Made by a program: the position numbers and the translations under genes. Of a DNA stretch of 64,000 nucleotides, positions 29,996 through 39,515 are shown piece by piece. The number at the start of each line of letters is the position of its first letter. The stretch's first letter is position 1. A model generated the notes under the pieces. The model did not search any database. It was not told the origin of the DNA and was given only the letters and a program-made list of their open reading frames with translations. Origin of the DNA: Deltaproteobacteria bacterium (GTDB taxonomy: Bacteria > Desulfobacterota > Desulfobulbia > Desulfobulbales > Desulfurivibrionaceae); assembly GCA_021811385.1 (NCBI GenBank), contig JAJZPC010000001.1, forward strand, positions 1-64,000, written 5' to 3'.

Positions 29996-31196
29996 GTGTC
30001 ATGTCACGCGTTAAATGTCGGATACAACCGTTTGAGCTTAATCCGTGCGTCTTCTGTCTTGAATTGCCAGTTCACCTTGGCGTGAATCTGGTCGCGGTGA
30101 GCTTGCCAAGCGGCAACTTCCTCACAAACCTCTTCCATACTGCCGATGCGCCGATCAAGGCACTGACTGATCAGCACGTTGAGTTCGATCTCCGCAACGT
30201 TGAGCCAACTACCGTGCTTCGGCGAGTAGACGAATCCAAAGCGGTCCCAGAGCACCTTCGCTTGGTCAGGGGGAAACGCCTGGTATAGTGCGCCCGGACT
30301 ATGGGTATTCAGATTGTCCATCACCAGCGTGATCTTATGTGCATCAGGGTAGCGTTCGGCAATGTCCTGGAGGAAGCGTGCCCAGTCCACCTTGGTCTTG
30401 CATGCCGTCACCTTGGTCATCCGCCTTCCGGCCAACGGTTCGCTCGCCATGAATATATTACAGACTCCGCATCGTTCGTATTCGTAATCGTGCCGTTCGA
30501 GCTGGCCAGGACAAGCCGGAACCGGTGTGCGCGTTTCACGGATGAGTTGTCGCGGCGTTTCGTCCATGCAAACCACGGGGATGTCCATGTTATAAGGCCG
30601 ACGGCACACGTCGAGAACCCGTTCCATTGCAGCAACAAACTCTGCATTGGCTTCGGGAGGGATTACCCAGCCAACTTTCCGCCACGGTTTGATTTCGTTT
30701 TTTTAGGACTCGGCGCACCGTCTCGTAGGAAACACGGTCGATGTACTCAAGCTCCACCGCACGATCAGCCCGCAAGCGTAGCGACCATCGGGCGAAACCT
30801 TTCGGAGGCGCACCGCAACTCATGGCGACCAAATGAGCCTCGAACTCGCCATCGGCCTTGCGCTCGTAGTTGCGCTGGCCCTGCCGTCCACCTAATGCCA
30901 CCTCCAGTCCCTCCTCGACAAAGCGCTTCTTGACCCGGTCAACCTTGCGCATACTGATCCGCAAGATATTCGCCACGTCTTCTCCCTTGGTACGATGTTC
31001 GTTGAATTCACCTTCGTCGCAGTTCAACAAAATTAGCGCGTTAATCACCTTCTGGGACTGGTGGGAGCCTTTATGTGTAATAGCCGTCAAGTCTTCCCGC
31101 TCACTCGCCAGCAGCGTCACTTTGTAAAGTTTCATTGGGGAGCCCTCGTCGTCTTGTTTTGAAGTAGATGACGACAGATCAAGCGTGACGTGACAC
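29996..31196 (-). mobile_element. IS630-family insertion sequence
   Basis: About 1.2 kb, flanked by TA (29994-29995 and 31197-31198), the target duplicated by the IS630/Tc1 group. The ends are related inverted repeats: GTGTCATGTCACGCGTT from 29996, and GTGTCACGTCACGCTTG reading inward from 31196. The transposase is encoded on the minus strand in two frames. The element sits between cysC and wecB, in the same direction as the operon. Confidence 0.85.
30004..31135 (-). pseudogene. IS630-family transposase in two frames (frameshifted or slippage-expressed)
   Basis: The first frame (31135 to about 30700) gives a winged-helix N-terminal part (DVANILRISMRKVDRVKKRF, YETVRRVLKK). The second frame (ORF 30004-30627, with homologous sequence already from about 30695: EIKPWRKVGWVIPPEANAEF) carries the DDE catalytic part (VVCMDETPRQLI, ITLVMDNLNTH, SPKHGSWLNVAEIE). 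The junction is a run of seven A residues (CCTAAAAAAACGAAATC on the minus strand): six A residues would join the frames. This may be a mutation, or a transcriptional/translational slippage site as used by some IS630 elements. Confidence 0.78.
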
Positions 31197-32095: not shown

Positions 32096-32614
32096 TTATT
32101 GCCGTTGCACCCTATCAAGAGAAAGCGTGGCCTTTACCTGGCGATTGAGAAAACTCAAAAGCACCACCACATTCTCCTCGCCGGAGAATGAGTAAAACAA
32201 CCCCTGGGCAGAGGTATCATCAAGCTGCACCGCGACAGCCACGCCCGGAGTCAGTCCCTTTTTCTGTAGGTCCACCAAGGGCACAGCCCCACCCGCATCT
32301 TCTTTGGCCTGCAGATCGTCGATAATCCAGTCCGGCACCGGGACATACTGGTCGCCGAAGCATATCGGTCCGAGGGCGCCACGGGTGGAGGAGATCGCCA
32401 CCCAGTTCCGTTCGGCTGGCGCGAGATGCAAAAAGAGATAGCCGGGAAAAAAGGGCTTGAGTTTCTCCTCTGTCCGTCGGGCATGCCGGACAATGGTCCG
32501 CATCATGGGCAGATAGACCACATACCCCTGCCACTCGTAATGCAGTTTGGCAACCTGTTCCTGTTGGGGTTTGGTGCGGATGGCGAACCACTCTCGGGAT
32601 ACGCTCTGTTTCAT
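32096..32614 (-). CDS. RfaH/NusG-like transcription antitermination protein
   Basis: The track ORF (32812) runs through the tRNA-Ser gene and its first 66 residues are not real; the ATG at 32614 (MKQSVSREWFAIRTKPQQEQ) starts the conserved part, giving 172 residues. The NGN domain is about residues 8-105 (EWFAIRTKPQQE, LPMMRTIVRHARRTEEK, PFFPGYLFLHL, STRGALGPICFGDQYVPVP) and the KOW-like C-terminus about 115-170 (LTPGVAVAVQLDD, LFYSFSGEENVVVLLSFLNRQVKATL). It should load on RNA polymerase at ops and suppress termination. The ribosome site is weak. NusG itself would be encoded elsewhere, so this is a specialised paralogue. Confidence 0.85.
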   Translation of the reverse strand: MKQSVSREWFAIRTKPQQEQVAKLHYEWQGYVVYLPMMRTIVRHARRTEEKLKPFFPGYLFLHLAPAERNWVAISSTRGALGPICFGDQYVPVPDWIIDDLQAKEDAGGAVPLVDLQKKGLTPGVAVAVQLDDTSAQGLFYSFSGEENVVVLLSFLNRQVKATLSLDRVQRQ

Positions 32615-32726
32615 GGAAAATGGATGAGAAAAATGGTCAAAAGACTGCCCAGCATCAGGCATAGCAGAGAATTTTGCATTTTCACCTTGCCTCAAACGGC
32701 CCAGCCGAATCTTTTCCCGGCAAAAC

Positions 32727-32818
32727 TGGAGGAGAGGGTGGGATTCGAACCCACGGACCTGGTCTCCCAGGTCAAGCGATTTCGAGTCGCTCCCGATCGG
32801 CCACTCTGGCACCTCTCC
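32727..32818 (-). tRNA. tRNA-Ser (anticodon CGA)
   Basis: On the minus strand: acceptor GGAGAGG pairs with CCTCTCC, the anticodon loop is CTCGAAA in a GCGA-type stem (anticodon CGA), a long variable arm (ACCTGGGAGACCAGGT) shows a class II tRNA, and the T arm is GTGGGTTCGAATCCCAC. CCA is encoded (32727-32729). The base before CCA is T, while G is usual in tRNA-Ser. Confidence 0.93.
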
Positions 32819-32858: not shown

Positions 32859-33329
32859 TCACTTTGTGACTACCCCGTTCCTTCTTTCCCGGAAAAAATT
32901 CTTGAGCAGGGCAGCGCTCTCTGCCTCCAGCAGACCGCCTTCCACGTCCAGCAGGTGGTTGAGCCGTGTGTCCTGCCCGACCTGAAAAAGAGAGACCACC
33001 CCGCCGGCCTTGGGGTCGATTGCGCCATAGATCAGGCGGCTCACCCGGGCGTGCACCAAGGCACCAGCGCACATCACACAGGGCTCCAGAGTAACATAGA
33101 GGGTGGTGCCGGGCAAACGATAATTACCCTGCACCCTCCCCGCCTGCCGAAGCACCAGCATTTCCGCGTGTGCTCCTGGGTCGCACAACTCGATGGTGCG
33201 GTTGCCATTTCTGGCGATGATCCGCCCATCGCTGTCCACCAGCACCGCGCCGATGGGCACTTCACCCCGCTCCGCCGCTAGCCGCGCCTCGGTGAGGGCG
33301 ATCTCCATGTACTGCTCCGGGAAGCCCAT
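32859..33329 (-). CDS. tadA: tRNA-specific adenosine deaminase
   Basis: The track ORF (33638) reads antisense through trxB first; the real start is the ATG at 33329 (MGFPEQYMEIALTEA), giving 156 residues. Zinc and catalytic motifs: HAEM (His ligand and catalytic Glu, about residue 54) and PCVMC (two Cys ligands, about 84-87). It converts A34 to I34 in tRNA-Arg(ACG). It lies 19 nt behind the trxB-like gene and 41 nt ahead of tRNA-Ser, in the same direction. Confidence 0.9.
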   Translation of the reverse strand: MGFPEQYMEIALTEARLAAERGEVPIGAVLVDSDGRIIARNGNRTIELCDPGAHAEMLVLRQAGRVQGNYRLPGTTLYVTLEPCVMCAGALVHARVSRLIYGAIDPKAGGVVSLFQVGQDTRLNHLLDVEGGLLEAESAALLKNFFRERRNGVVTK

Positions 33330-33348
33330 GGCTAATGAATCCGGCACG

Positions 33349-34272
33349 CTACTCGCTTTCCGAAGTACGCTTGAGCCGGTTGGCCCGGTTGGCAGCCTCC
33401 CAGCCGGCCACACACCCCTCGCCCGCCGCCTTGGCCATCTGCCAGGGAGGCCCGGCGATGTCGCCCGCCGCGTAAATGCCGGGGATATTGGTTTCCTGCT
33501 TCTTGTTGGTTTCGATAAAAGAGAAGGTGTCCGTGTCGAGCATAACGCCGATGCTGGTGGCGAGCTCCATGGCGCCCTTGGCCCCGAGTTCGACAAAAAC
33601 TCCGTCCACCGCAAGGGTCTCGCCGTTGTCCAGGACAAGACCGTTCACCGCTTTTTCGCCGACAATCTCCTTGGGCCAGGCGCCCTTGTGCACCACCACG
33701 GAGCTGGCGCCCAGCTTTTCGCCAAGCTCCTTGGTGACCGTCATATCCTTGCTTACCAAATGGACCTCGGAGGCATATTTGGTAAGGGTCAGGGCTCCGT
33801 CCACCGCAGCGGATTCGTTGCCCACCACCGCCACCTTGGCGTTGCGATAGAAATTGGCGTCGCAATCCACACAGTAGCTGACCCCACGGCCCAGCAACTC
33901 CTTCTCGCCCGGCACCCTTAGCTTTTTGCGCGAGGTGCCGGTGGCGAGGATCAGGGTGCGGGCCGTGACCTGCCGCCCGCTTTCCACATTGACCGTGAAC
34001 AGTTCGCCGTCCTGGCCAAGATGCAGAACATCCTCCGGCCATACCTCCGCACCGAAACGGGTGACCTGGCCCAGGGCGGTCCGCAACAACTCCGCCCCCC
34101 CGGTAACACCGTCGACACAAAGATAATTTTCAACATGGGCCGAGTAAATACTGCTGTTTTCCACCCGACCCAGAACAAGCACCGAAGCCTTTTTCCGGAC
34201 TGCATGCACGGCAGCCTGCAACCCTGCCGGGCCGGCGCCGATAATCACCACGTCTGTTACCTGCTCAACCAT
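33349..34272 (-). CDS. trxB: Thioredoxin reductase-like flavoprotein
   Basis: 307 residues, ATG at 34272 with GGGGAGG upstream. FAD-binding VVIIGAGPAGLQAAVHA, redox-active CVDCD (about residues 135-138), NAD(P)-binding VAVVGNESAAVDGALTL and the C-terminal FAD site IYAAGDIAGPPWQMAKAAGEG, cited in part. The second nucleotide motif is GNESAA, not the usual GGGDSA, so the electron donor or redox partner may differ from standard TrxB. It reduces thioredoxin or a related protein. A remnant of the same gene start lies before gmd. Confidence 0.8.
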   Translation of the reverse strand: MVEQVTDVVIIGAGPAGLQAAVHAVRKKASVLVLGRVENSSIYSAHVENYLCVDGVTGGAELLRTALGQVTRFGAEVWPEDVLHLGQDGELFTVNVESGRQVTARTLILATGTSRKKLRVPGEKELLGRGVSYCVDCDANFYRNAKVAVVGNESAAVDGALTLTKYASEVHLVSKDMTVTKELGEKLGASSVVVHKGAWPKEIVGEKAVNGLVLDNGETLAVDGVFVELGAKGAMELATSIGVMLDTDTFSFIETNKKQETNIPGIYAAGDIAGPPWQMAKAAGEGCVAGWEAANRANRLKRTSESE

Positions 34273-35668: not shown

Positions 35669-38600
35669 ATGCGCTATATCGCTGACCTGCACATCCATTC
35701 CCCCTTCTCCCGCGCAACCAGCAAGGCCGGCAACCTGCAAGGGCTGGCCGCCTGGGCTCACGTCAAGGGCATCCATCTGCTCGGCACCGGCGACTTCACC
35801 CATCCCGGCTGGTTCAGTCAGCTCAAGGAACAGCTTGCCCCTGCCGAACCGGGATTCTTCAAGCTCAAGAACGAAGCAATCCCCCCCGCCTTGCCGCAGG
35901 CAACACCGGCTGCGCTTCCCATTCGTTTTCTGCTCACCGCCGAGATCAGCTCCATCTACAAACGTCACGGCGCGGTGCGCAAGGTGCACAACCTGCTCTA
36001 CGTGCCCGATTTCGCCTCGGCGGAACGGATCAACTCCGTCCTGGCCGGCATCGGCAACATCGAATCCGACGGCCGCCCCATCCTGGGCCTTGACTCCCGC
36101 GATCTGCTCGAAATCCTGCTCGAAAAGGCGCCCGAGGGTTTTCTGGTCCCAGCCCACATCTGGACGCCGTGGTTTTCCCTGTTCGGTTCACGCTCCGGTT
36201 TTAACACCATCGAGGAATGCTACGGCGATCTCAGCGCCCATGTCTTTGCCCTGGAAACCGGTCTCTCCTCGGACCCGGACATGAACCGGCTCATCCCTGC
36301 CCTGGACCGCTTCGCCCTGATCTCCAATTCCGATTGCCATTCTCCCGGCAAGTTGGGCCGGGAAGCCAACATCTTCAACACCGGCTTCAGCTTTGTCGGT
36401 TTGCGCGAGGCCCTGAAAAATCCCCTGAGCGGCACCTTTGCCGGGACGATCGAATTCTATCCGGAAGAAGGAAAATACCATTGCGACGGCCACCGGAACT
36501 GCCGGGTTTGCCTTGAGCCTGCCGAAACCAGAAAGATCGGGGCGATCTGCCCGGTCTGCGGCAAGCCCCTCACCGTGGGGGTGCTGCACCGGGTCATGGA
36601 GCTGGCCGAGCGGACAGAGCCGCACTACCCGCCGGGCTCACCTGCGGTGCACAGCCTTATCCCGCTGCCCGAGGTATTGGGTGAGATTCTCGGCGCCGGC
36701 CCGGCCACCAAGGGGGTAATGGCCCTGTACGCCAAGGTCATCGACCGTTTCGGTTCGGAGTTCACCCTGCTGCTCGACACGCCCATCGAAGAAATAAACC
36801 AAATGTCCCCGGTGCTGGGCGAGGCGGTGGCCCGCATCCGCACGGGCCGGGTCATCCGTACCCCCGGCTACGATGGGGAATTTGGGGTGATCCGGGTCTT
36901 CGGGGACGGAGAGCGGGAGGAGCTGGCCGGACAGATCAGTCTGTTTGCCGGAAAAAAGACCGCCCCGCCCGCGACAAAACAGGGCCGCGGCCCGCTCCCC
37001 CTTGAAAAGAAACCCGCTTTGCCGGACGATAAGCCCCGGCCCCCACGAAAGCCCAACCCGGAGCAACTGGCCGCCATCACCAGCAGAGCCGAGACCATTT
37101 TGGTGGCTGCCGGCCCCGGCACCGGCAAAACTTTTACTTTGGTGGCCAGAATCGAACATCTGCTGACCGCGGAAAACGCCCGGCCGGAAGGAATGGTGGC
37201 CATCACCTTCACCAACCGGGCAGCCCGGGAGATGCAAGAGCGTCTGAACCGGGATCTCGGCGGCGAGGCTGCCCGGGCCATCTTCGTGGGCACCTTCCAC
37301 GCCTATTGCCTGGCCCTGTTGCGCAAGGAAAACCCCGACCTCACGGTCATCGGCGAGGACGAGCGCGACCTGTATCTGCGCAAGGTTTTCCCGGATGTAT
37401 CCCGGGCCGAACACCATATCCTCAAAAAACAACTGGCCGGCTACGTTGATCAGCTCAACCGGGGGACATTGCCGGCCGAAGCCGCGCTGCCGGACCTTCT
37501 TGACCGCTATCTTGCCTCGCTTACGCCGAACAAAGCCATTGACCTTGACCTGGTCATCCCCCGATGCGTGGAACGCCTGAGTTGCGAGCCCGCCTTTGGA
37601 GGACAGGTCTCCGGCCAAGTGGCCCATCTCTTTGTCGACGAATTCCAGGACCTCAACCATCCCCAGTACCAGTTGGTTCTGTTACTCGGCAGGCAGGCGC
37701 GGGTATTTGCCATCGGCGATCCCAACCAGGCGATTTACGGCTTTCGCGGCAGCGATCTCACCCTGTTCCAGCAATTCCGGGAAAGACCGGGCGTCACCAC
37801 CCTGCCCCTGATCCGCAACTACCGTTCAGCCCCGGCCATTATCGATGGCGCGGCAGCCCTCATTCGCCGGAACCGGCAGAGCGGCGACACCCAGCTTGTT
37901 CCCGAAAGCACCAGCTCGGCGTCCATCGAATGGCATCAAGCGCCAAGCGCCCAGGCCGAGGCGGAGTTTATCGTGCACCGCATCGAAGAAGGGGTGGGCG
38001 GCCTCAGCAGCCTTTCCCGGCAAACGGGCCGAGGCGGCGGCCATGCCCCGGCCCGGAGCTTTGCCGATTTCGCCGTGCTCTACCGGCTCAGCCAGATGGC
38101 GGAGCCCATTGCCGAAGCCTTGCACCGCAAGGGCATCCCCTTCCAGCTTGTCGGCGCCACTCCTTTTTACCTCAAGCCCGCCCTGAAACCCGCCTACCAT
38201 CTCCTGTTGGCCAGCGCGCCGGATGCGGGCCTGATCGAGCATCTTCTGCTGATCGCAGATCTTCCCGGGGTCGGAGAGGCAACCATTGCCCTTATCGAGA
38301 AGGAACTCCCCTTGCGCTGCCCTGATTTTTACGAGGGAGCGCTCGCCCTTTCCCTGCCAGCCGGCGCGGCAACAAGCCTCCGGCAGCTAGGCGAAATTAT
38401 CGGAAAATTCCGCCGGGCGGCGGAGCATGGCCTTGCCCACCCCCTGGCCGAAGCCATGCCCGCATTGGGCATCGATCCCCCGGAAGCGGAGGCCAAACGG
38501 TTGCTCGAGCTGGCCAACGCCTTTGGCAACGATCTCCAGGCCTTTTGCGCACATCTCCGGCAAAATGCCCAGGCCACCGCCTACGATGAACGGGCCGAGG

Positions 38601-38929
38601 CCGTGGCCCTCATGACCATGCATGGCGCCAAGGGGCTGGAGTTTCCGGTGGTCTTTCTGGCCGGGATGGAAGAGGAGATCCTCCCCTGCACCATTGCCAA
38701 TCTGCACTCCAACGTGGAAGAAGAACGCCGCCTCCTCTATGTGGCCATGACCAGGGCGCAGGAGAGCCTGATTCTAAGCGGTGCCGCAAGCCGCACCGTC
38801 TTCAACCGTACAACCGGCCACCGCCCCTCCCGCTTTATCCAGGAAATCCCGGCATCCCTGCTGAGCGAGGTTGAACACTCCCTGGCCAAGCGGCGGAATG
38901 CCGGCGGGAGACAACTGCAACTTTTTTAG
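35669..38929 (+). CDS. PHP/endonuclease Q-like domain fused to UvrD-type helicase
   Basis: 1086 residues. Residues 1 to about 420 match EndoQ-type PHP nucleases: DLHIHSPFSRATS, LLGTGDFTHPGWF, EISSIYKRHGAVRKVHN, PAHIWTPWFSLFG, SNSDCHSPGKLGREAN as metal ligands, and a four-cysteine zinc site CRVC...CPVC (about 276-303). Residues 460-1086 form an SF1A helicase: Walker A AAGPGTGKTF (about 480), FVDEFQD (about 655), GDPNQAIYGFRGSD, LIRNYRS, MTMHGAKGLEF and LLYVAMTRAQESL. EndoQ cuts DNA at deaminated bases (uracil, hypoxanthine, xanthine), so the fusion suggests coupled nicking and unwinding in repair. The function of the bacterial fusion is inferred. Confidence 0.85.
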   Translation: MRYIADLHIHSPFSRATSKAGNLQGLAAWAHVKGIHLLGTGDFTHPGWFSQLKEQLAPAEPGFFKLKNEAIPPALPQATPAALPIRFLLTAEISSIYKRHGAVRKVHNLLYVPDFASAERINSVLAGIGNIESDGRPILGLDSRDLLEILLEKAPEGFLVPAHIWTPWFSLFGSRSGFNTIEECYGDLSAHVFALETGLSSDPDMNRLIPALDRFALISNSDCHSPGKLGREANIFNTGFSFVGLREALKNPLSGTFAGTIEFYPEEGKYHCDGHRNCRVCLEPAETRKIGAICPVCGKPLTVGVLHRVMELAERTEPHYPPGSPAVHSLIPLPEVLGEILGAGPATKGVMALYAKVIDRFGSEFTLLLDTPIEEINQMSPVLGEAVARIRTGRVIRTPGYDGEFGVIRVFGDGEREELAGQISLFAGKKTAPPATKQGRGPLPLEKKPALPDDKPRPPRKPNPEQLAAITSRAETILVAAGPGTGKTFTLVARIEHLLTAENARPEGMVAITFTNRAAREMQERLNRDLGGEAARAIFVGTFHAYCLALLRKENPDLTVIGEDERDLYLRKVFPDVSRAEHHILKKQLAGYVDQLNRGTLPAEAALPDLLDRYLASLTPNKAIDLDLVIPRCVERLSCEPAFGGQVSGQVAHLFVDEFQDLNHPQYQLVLLLGRQARVFAIGDPNQAIYGFRGSDLTLFQQFRERPGVTTLPLIRNYRSAPAIIDGAAALIRRNRQSGDTQLVPESTSSASIEWHQAPSAQAEAEFIVHRIEEGVGGLSSLSRQTGRGGGHAPARSFADFAVLYRLSQMAEPIAEALHRKGIPFQLVGATPFYLKPALKPAYHLLLASAPDAGLIEHLLLIADLPGVGEATIALIEKELPLRCPDFYEGALALSLPAGAATSLRQLGEIIGKFRRAAEHGLAHPLAEAMPALGIDPPEAEAKRLLELANAFGNDLQAFCAHLRQNAQATAYDERAEAVALMTMHGAKGLEFPVVFLAGMEEEILPCTIANLHSNVEEERRLLYVAMTRAQESLILSGAASRTVFNRTTGHRPSRFIQEIPASLLSEVEHSLAKRRNAGGRQLQLF

Positions 38930-38996: not shown

Positions 38997-39515
38997 ATGA
39001 AAAATCAGGACAGACCCGCGCCCAGGACCATCCGGATCGGCGCGGCAAACATCGGCCTGATCGGCCTTGATCAGGCCCTGAGCACGGCGCTGACCGGGCA
39101 GATGCCGGAAGAGAAGGCGGTGGATTTCCTTTTCGGCGCCATTGCCAAGGAAAACTACGTCCCGGCGACGGCGGAACCGGCCTACCGCGAGGCATTACGA
39201 GCCGAATATCGACGCCGCCAGGGGATACAGACCGTTGCGCCGGAAATCCTCACCATCCGGGTGCTAGGCTCCGGCTGCGTGACCTGCAACACCCTCAGCG
39301 CCATGCTCTATGAATCCCTGCAGAAATTCGGCCTGGCCGCCGACATGGAATCGGTGCATGATCTGGATGAGATCTGGCGCTTCGGGGTCACCAAAACCCC
39401 GGCCCTGATCATCAACAGCACGGTGAAATGCGCCGGGCGCATGCCATCCCCGGCGGAGGTCGAGGCATGGGTTAGGGAAGAGAGTGAAAAACTGAGAATG
39501 AAGATTGCAGGATAA
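38997..39515 (+). CDS. Thioredoxin-like protein with N-terminal helical extension
   Basis: The true start is probably the ATG at 38997 (MKNQDRPAPRTIRIGAAN), 42 codons inside the track ORF; 172 residues. The C-terminal 80 residues are a small thioredoxin fold of the redox-active disulfide type: ILTIRVLGSGCVTCNTLSAM (CVTC active site, about residue 94), then the cis-Pro motif TKTPALIIN. The N-terminal 80 residues are helical (LIGLDQALSTALTG, EKAVDFLFGAIAKENYVP) and not recognised. It could serve as a redox partner in anaerobic metabolism. Confidence 0.72.
   Translation: MKNQDRPAPRTIRIGAANIGLIGLDQALSTALTGQMPEEKAVDFLFGAIAKENYVPATAEPAYREALRAEYRRRQGIQTVAPEILTIRVLGSGCVTCNTLSAMLYESLQKFGLAADMESVHDLDEIWRFGVTKTPALIINSTVKCAGRMPSPAEVEAWVREESEKLRMKIAG

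Follow-up and report, generated by a model that had tools for sequence, protein, structure and literature searches.

A gene in the window (the whole 64,000-nucleotide stretch that was analysed) encodes, in one chain, an EndoQ nuclease domain and a complete UvrD/PcrA/Rep-type SF1A helicase, and verified fusions of the same kind were found in more than 15 bacterial phyla. We propose a clamp-tethered enzyme for an alternative excision repair of deaminated bases, which would nick 5' of the lesion and displace the lesion strand; we judge this account slightly likelier to be right than wrong. No description of an EndoQ-UvrD fusion was found in the literature, the coverage of which left out most subscription journals, so this is not proof; as an enzyme, the conserved, ancient, clamp-motif-bearing fusion appears to be undescribed in the searchable literature. 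In the usual teaching, bacteria repair deaminated bases by a glycosylase (Ung) or by EndoV. If the proposal is true, a widespread single-chain lesion nuclease and motor with clamp motifs would constitute a third, glycosylase-free route, the fusion would provide the helicase action that was postulated for EndoQ in 2015, and the handling of uracil and hypoxanthine in bacteria without UDG and EndoV would be explained.

Architecture and conserved sites of the fusion

The open reading frame was intact, with an ATG start and no internal stops (features are listed in the table). Residues 5–410 were aligned by phmmer over the full length of PfuEndoQ (5zb8; PHP, zinc, and helical domains; E = 7.4e-54) with 32–33% identity, and the model was matched to the same structure by Foldseek (TM 0.88, rmsd 2.5 Å). 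The TIGR00375 match (E = 1.6e-50) scored 172.6 bits, under the curated cut-off of 326.6. Since this cut-off was reached by none of the 297 phylum genomes, it shuts out the whole bacterial branch. The helicase half matched the UvrD N-domain (PF00580, E = 3.3e-53) and UvrD_C (PF13361, E = 3e-39), and Foldseek aligned it to UvrD, PcrA, and Rep over approximately 650 columns (TM up to 0.78, by target). The sequence-only reading of this DNA, a PHP domain of the EndoQ type and a complete UvrD-type helicase in one chain, both parts belonging to known families, was borne out by these profile and fold matches.

Table. Features of the EndoQ-UvrD fusion gene and its downstream neighbour (window coordinates)
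Feature	Position	Strand	Basis or remark
Complete EndoQ-UvrD fusion gene	35669..38929	+	1086 aa
EndoQ domain, aa 5-410: PHP nuclease, zinc insert, C-terminal helical domain	35681..36898	+	phmmer, Foldseek, TIGR00375
PHP metal ligands H8, H10, D42, E92, H107, H163, D222, H224 and base-pocket E196, G198, S200	35690..36340	+	PfuEndoQ alignment
Zinc site H275, C278, C294, C297	36491..36559	+	PfuEndoQ alignment and 124-fusion alignment
First beta-clamp-binding-like motif QISLF, aa 422-426, just C-terminal of EndoQ domain	36932..36946	+	
Disordered linker	36947..37054	+	pLDDT <50 for aa 421-458
UvrD/PcrA/Rep-type SF1A helicase, aa 463-1072; subdomains 1A, 1B, 2A, 2B	37055..38884	+	profile matches, Foldseek
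Walker A GPGTGKT, aa 482-488	37112..37132	+	
Motif II DEFQD, aa 657-661	37637..37651	+	
2B subdomain region, aa ~835-960	38171..38548	+	block occupancy; boundaries approximate
C-terminal beta-clamp-binding-like motif QLQLF, aa 1082-1086, final five residues, disordered tail	38912..38926	+	
Thioredoxin-like gene (Thioredoxin_3), directly downstream, separate	38997..39515	+	

An AlphaFold2 model, for which an alignment of 41 fusions was used as input, had a mean pLDDT of 86.7 and a pTM of 0.58, with disorder in the linker (421–458) and the tail (1073–1086). The structural look at the domain interface, suggested together with that reading, yielded no defined placement of one half relative to the other (pTM 0.58). 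An assembly or annotation artefact was rejected, because 41 genomes of the phylum sample were verified to have the same architecture, as do 79 of the 80 top-ranked named loci among at least 593 relatives in a separate collection.

In PfuEndoQ, E76, H84, and H139 are essential, their mutation abolishing activity, and H139, G169, and S171 keep the normal bases T and A out of the pocket (PMC8307549). The alignment equated E92, H107, H163, and D222 of the window protein with E76, H84, H139, and D193 of PfuEndoQ, respectively, and confirmed that the PHP metal ligands are kept. The ligands and pocket residues were the same in all 41 fusions and all 23 standalone EndoQs compared within the phylum sample, and did not vary at any alignable position of 124 fusions from many phyla; the invariant catalytic and pocket residues included H139, E167, G169, S171, and D193 (PfuEndoQ numbering). 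Ligand loss in homologues had been named beforehand as the observation that would speak against the reading, and none was lost in the 124 aligned fusions (alignable positions). Its "zinc cysteines" held in part: four candidate ligands are kept, as HCCC and not as four cysteines. The archaeal C249 was replaced by His in 119 of 122 scorable fusions, and three of the four zinc ligands were invariant wherever alignable among the 124.

All SF1A motifs (Q, I, Ia, II–VI) were present in the window protein. The positions compared were Q466, GPGTGKT 482–488, DExQD 657–661, GDxxQxxYxFRG 683–694, R719, H985, KGxE 988–991, and TR 1028–1029. Where alignable, they were invariant in the 124 fusions, except for one Walker A glycine change and conservative Y/F and T/S swaps, so the claim that every helicase motif is retained stands with these minor swaps. 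Because EndoQ and helicase residues are both invariant, neither half is a relic. Over more than 15 phyla, the residues for ATP hydrolysis and coupling in the SF1A motor hardly vary, so the motor is under selection jointly with the nuclease. The 2B region was absent, with all motor motifs kept, from six fusions (L033, L044, L046, L047, L049, and L053); its loss in some lineages leaves room for translocase-only roles.

Distribution and evolutionary history

The phylum sample comprised 297 genomes of the window's phylum. An EndoQ match was found in 194 of them, and by open-frame length, which defined the classes, 78 were fusion-length and 107 standalone, the remainder being weak or partial. EndoQ had been taken to be limited to archaea and some Bacillus, which these counts contradict. 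The helicase was confirmed in all 41 fusion-length frames examined (40 loci and the window), and the copy number was mostly one per genome. Fusion-length frames were also found in 20 of 150 genomes from the phylum of Clostridium sp. MCC353 (5/5 examined were verified), and a scan of 84,980 species yielded the relatives and best-80 loci mentioned above. Verified fusions came from Thermodesulfobacteriota, Myxococcota, Bacteroidota, Balneolota, Fibrobacterota, KSB1, Latescibacterota, Calditrichota, Chloroflexota, Spirochaetota, Bacillota, Planctomycetota, Gemmatimonadota, Actinomycetota, Elusimicrobiota, Melainabacteria, Binatota, and others. A mobile or phage origin was rejected, since no homologues were found in the phage, plasmid, and viral-contig collections. 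At one Bacillota locus (L162:3051-15087), a fused EndoQ and a standalone one from the same clade lie approximately 7 kb apart in opposite orientation.

The EndoQ-linked helicases, fused or split, grouped in a single clade (53 rows, SH-aLRT 92), to which none of 23 PcrA/UvrD/AddA-like helicases from ten genomes belonged. The equivalog scores were missed for pcrA (312.5 of 911 bits), uvrD (284.8 of 1144), and rep (271.9 of 951). By its sequence relationships, the helicase half is a UvrD-like paralogue in a clade of its own and not PcrA, UvrD, or Rep itself. In the EndoQ tree, the root of which depends on long outgroup branches, the bacterial fusion branch stood apart from EndoQ of the archaeal and Bacillus types (100% support), and standalone EndoQs were scattered within it (11 changes among 65 rows). 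Because the linked helicases form one clade apart from PcrA/UvrD, the simplest reading of the trees would be one ancient fusion, followed by repeated helicase loss. EndoQ was kept and the helicase apparently lost in L077, L171–L173, and L176–L178; as this seems to have happened several times, EndoQ can do without the helicase in places. In L109 (Nitrospirota), the two genes are split and adjoining, the helicase ATG lying a few codons past the EndoQ stop. The difference between L165 and L174 is one in-frame stop within the linker, which could be genuine or erroneous.

The fusion shares its fold, full-length homology, catalytic ligands, and zinc module with PfuEndoQ, TkoEndoQ, MacEndoQ, and Bacillus EndoQ, and differs from them in its separate clade and its zinc site (HCCC against CCCC); the EndoQs described in the literature consulted have no helicase. 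With UvrD, PcrA, and Rep it has in common all SF1A motifs and the four-subdomain fold. Compared with PcrA/UvrD of the same genomes, its helicase belongs to a separate clade, bears a clamp-type tail, and is without 2B in some lineages.

Clamp-binding-like motifs and the proposed mechanism

The beta-clamp consensus is QL[S/D]LF or QxxLF (PMC12309361), and it was matched in the exposed flexible tail of the window protein. For counting, the last 25 residues of 122 fusions with a complete end were scanned and compared with 1000 shuffles; these take no account of relatedness, and the motif nonetheless holds across phyla. Q[LM]xLF occurred in the tail of 93/122 fusions (0.2 expected, shuffle maximum 3) and the looser Qxx[LMI][FL] in 112/122 (6 expected). 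The motif formed the very C-terminus in 63 of the 122, and the canonical form was found only 10 times in the other 131,917 residues. A second motif, Qxx[LMI][FLW], lay no more than 35 residues past the EndoQ domain in 70 of 105 fusions, against 4.6 expected by shuffling. The clamp-type tail was absent from the 23 other UvrD-type helicases of the ten genomes. One EndoQ of 671 aa, in whose long C-terminal extension no helicase was detected, still ends in QQMSLF (L181:4042-6055).

Archaeal EndoQ binds PCNA through a C-terminal PIP box, PCNA stimulates its activity, and beta-clamp motifs in bacterial EndoQ homologues have already been pointed out (PMC4858679). Clamp binding of EndoQ is therefore not a new idea; new is the fusion with two motifs, one of them placed behind the EndoQ domain where archaeal EndoQ has its PCNA motif. 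The near-universal motifs suggest a clamp-tethered front end handing over to other enzymes. The earlier idea of lesion nicking coupled to strand displacement found support as a hypothesis. The description of the protein as "self-contained" was an overstatement, as it has no polymerase, flap nuclease, or ligase and its motifs point to handover.

The proposed mechanism was built on the observed anatomy, invariant sites, distribution, helicase clade, and motif enrichment, from which we infer nick specificity, polarity, coupling, clamp binding, and handover. The C-terminal tail, and probably also the motif behind the EndoQ domain, would bind the DnaN clamp. The EndoQ domain would, by analogy with PfuEndoQ, flip out uracil, hypoxanthine, or an abasic site and nick immediately 5' of it, giving a 3'-OH and a 5'-phosphate and a downstream strand that begins with the lesion. 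The polarity of UvrD/PcrA is 3' to 5'; by analogy, the helicase would run in this direction along the intact complementary strand and peel off the downstream lesion-bearing strand. A clamp-bound polymerase would extend the 3'-OH during displacement, and other proteins would presumably remove the flap and ligate. An EndoQ nick followed by helicase action and resynthesis is shared with the scheme of Shiraishi 2015, which shows a helicase taking away the fragment that EndoQ and EndoV cut out (PMC4357722). There the helicase is unnamed and separate and EndoV makes the second cut, whereas in the fusion the helicase is built in and EndoV is often absent.

Repair repertoire, alternative functions, and gene neighbourhood

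UDG (PF03167) was present in 265 and EndoV (PF04493) in 136 of the 297 phylum genomes. Among the 78 fusion genomes, UDG was missing in 12 and both enzymes in 11, compared with 1/107 standalone-EndoQ genomes without both. Ten of these 11 were supplied by one family, f42, in which 10/10 sampled genomes (listed as 99–100% complete) have the fusion and neither UDG nor EndoV. The single f42 sequence examined (L055) groups with Desulfovibrio L157 on both trees, for which reason the family is probably Desulfovibrionaceae; the Desulfovibrio genome of L157 is likewise without UDG. As f42 is one lineage and hence one event, the absence of UDG and EndoV is suggestive and not statistical proof. Outside f42, UDG was missing in only 2/68 fusion genomes, which means that in most cases the fusion is not the only enzyme for uracil repair. 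A general substitute for UDG was rejected (12/78 without UDG, ten of them in one family; Fisher p = 0.14). EndoV was found in 27/78 fusion and 52/107 standalone genomes (p = 0.07); because co-occurrence with the fusion was not above expectation, a fixed EndoV partnership was rejected and a fixed two-nick scheme is unsupported. The genome of the window, which is 75% complete, had a UDG match and no EndoV match. In this survey of the fusion against Ung/Nfi, as proposed earlier, f42 is without both, and most fusion genomes have UDG.

The repair-enzyme reading draws on the invariant catalytic and base-excluding EndoQ residues, the nearly invariant motor residues, the single clade of EndoQ-linked helicases, the enriched clamp-type tail that the 23 other UvrD-type helicases do not have, the PCNA binding of archaeal EndoQ, the helicase in the 2015 scheme, the fusion in f42 without UDG and EndoV, and the adjoining genes of the split form L109; against it stand the UDG of most fusion genomes, the EndoV counts, the halves without a fixed arrangement (pTM 0.58), and the apparent loss of the helicase where EndoQ stays. 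These last two points would suit a helicase that performs another step after EndoQ has nicked deaminated bases, without unwinding from the nick, such as freeing forks of proteins or secondary structure, or loading or recycling the enzyme on single-stranded DNA. The lineages that lack 2B and keep all motor motifs further suggest that translocation or remodelling can suffice. However, the retention of one ancient fusion in many phyla argues for a shared task, and L109 still keeps its genes together; we regard such a division of labour as rather unlikely. A PHP nuclease with an EndoQ-like fold and a helicase, specific for AP sites, mismatches, other lesions, or RNA in DNA, would account for the modest identity to PfuEndoQ (32–33%), the missed TIGR00375 cut-off, and the changed zinc ligand. 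AP sites are a known EndoQ substrate. The invariant H139, E167, G169, S171, and D193 speak against another specificity, as does B. pumilus EndoQ, reported as active on deaminated bases (cited in PMC6202378), and we consider it quite improbable.

Least probable, and in our judgement very unlikely, is a defence function, in which foreign DNA with uracil or unusual bases would be destroyed, the helicase feeding the nuclease. The helicase half does score to GajB models, and Gabija (GajA-GajB), like the fusion, pairs a nuclease with a UvrD-like helicase. Its nuclease GajA is of the OLD/TOPRIM type, and no GajA-type nuclease gene lies beside the fusion, the nearest neighbours of which are the GDP-mannose dehydratase and thioredoxin-like genes. 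The best GajB score (252.9 bits) was below the PcrA match (312.5), so the GajB scores look like generic SF1A similarity. A possible antiviral role of Bacillus EndoQ is cited in a review (PMC8307549), but the mostly single-copy fusion was not found in the mobile-element collections searched, which also sets it apart from Gabija. A defence island was rejected: the neighbours are not broadly shared between genomes, those in the window are ordinary metabolic genes, and the PADLOC hits were generic GajB-like SF1A matches. Returning to the repair-enzyme reading, its broadest form, an ancient pan-bacterial clamp-tethered incision-unwinding enzyme with its own glycosylase-free pathway and the main or only initiator in f42 (probably Desulfovibrionaceae), is put forward tentatively, at a little under even confidence.

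An association of the thioredoxin-like gene with the fusion was not seen outside the window's order. In a genome of the window's family, the EndoQ-UvrD frame (L052:3704-7468, 1254 aa) also takes in a Thioredoxin_3 domain; L034, like the window, has the thioredoxin-like gene as a separate frame immediately after the fusion. Upstream, on the minus strand, two overlapping reading frames resemble a frameshifted IS630-type transposase (30004-31135). A NusG-domain protein, possibly an RfaH-like paralogue (32096-32812, minus strand), is encoded among genes for APS kinase and GDP-mannose dehydratase, in what may be a polysaccharide region. There is also a TadA-like deaminase reading frame (32859-33638, minus strand), the listed start of which adds a long N-terminal part, the true start probably being internal.
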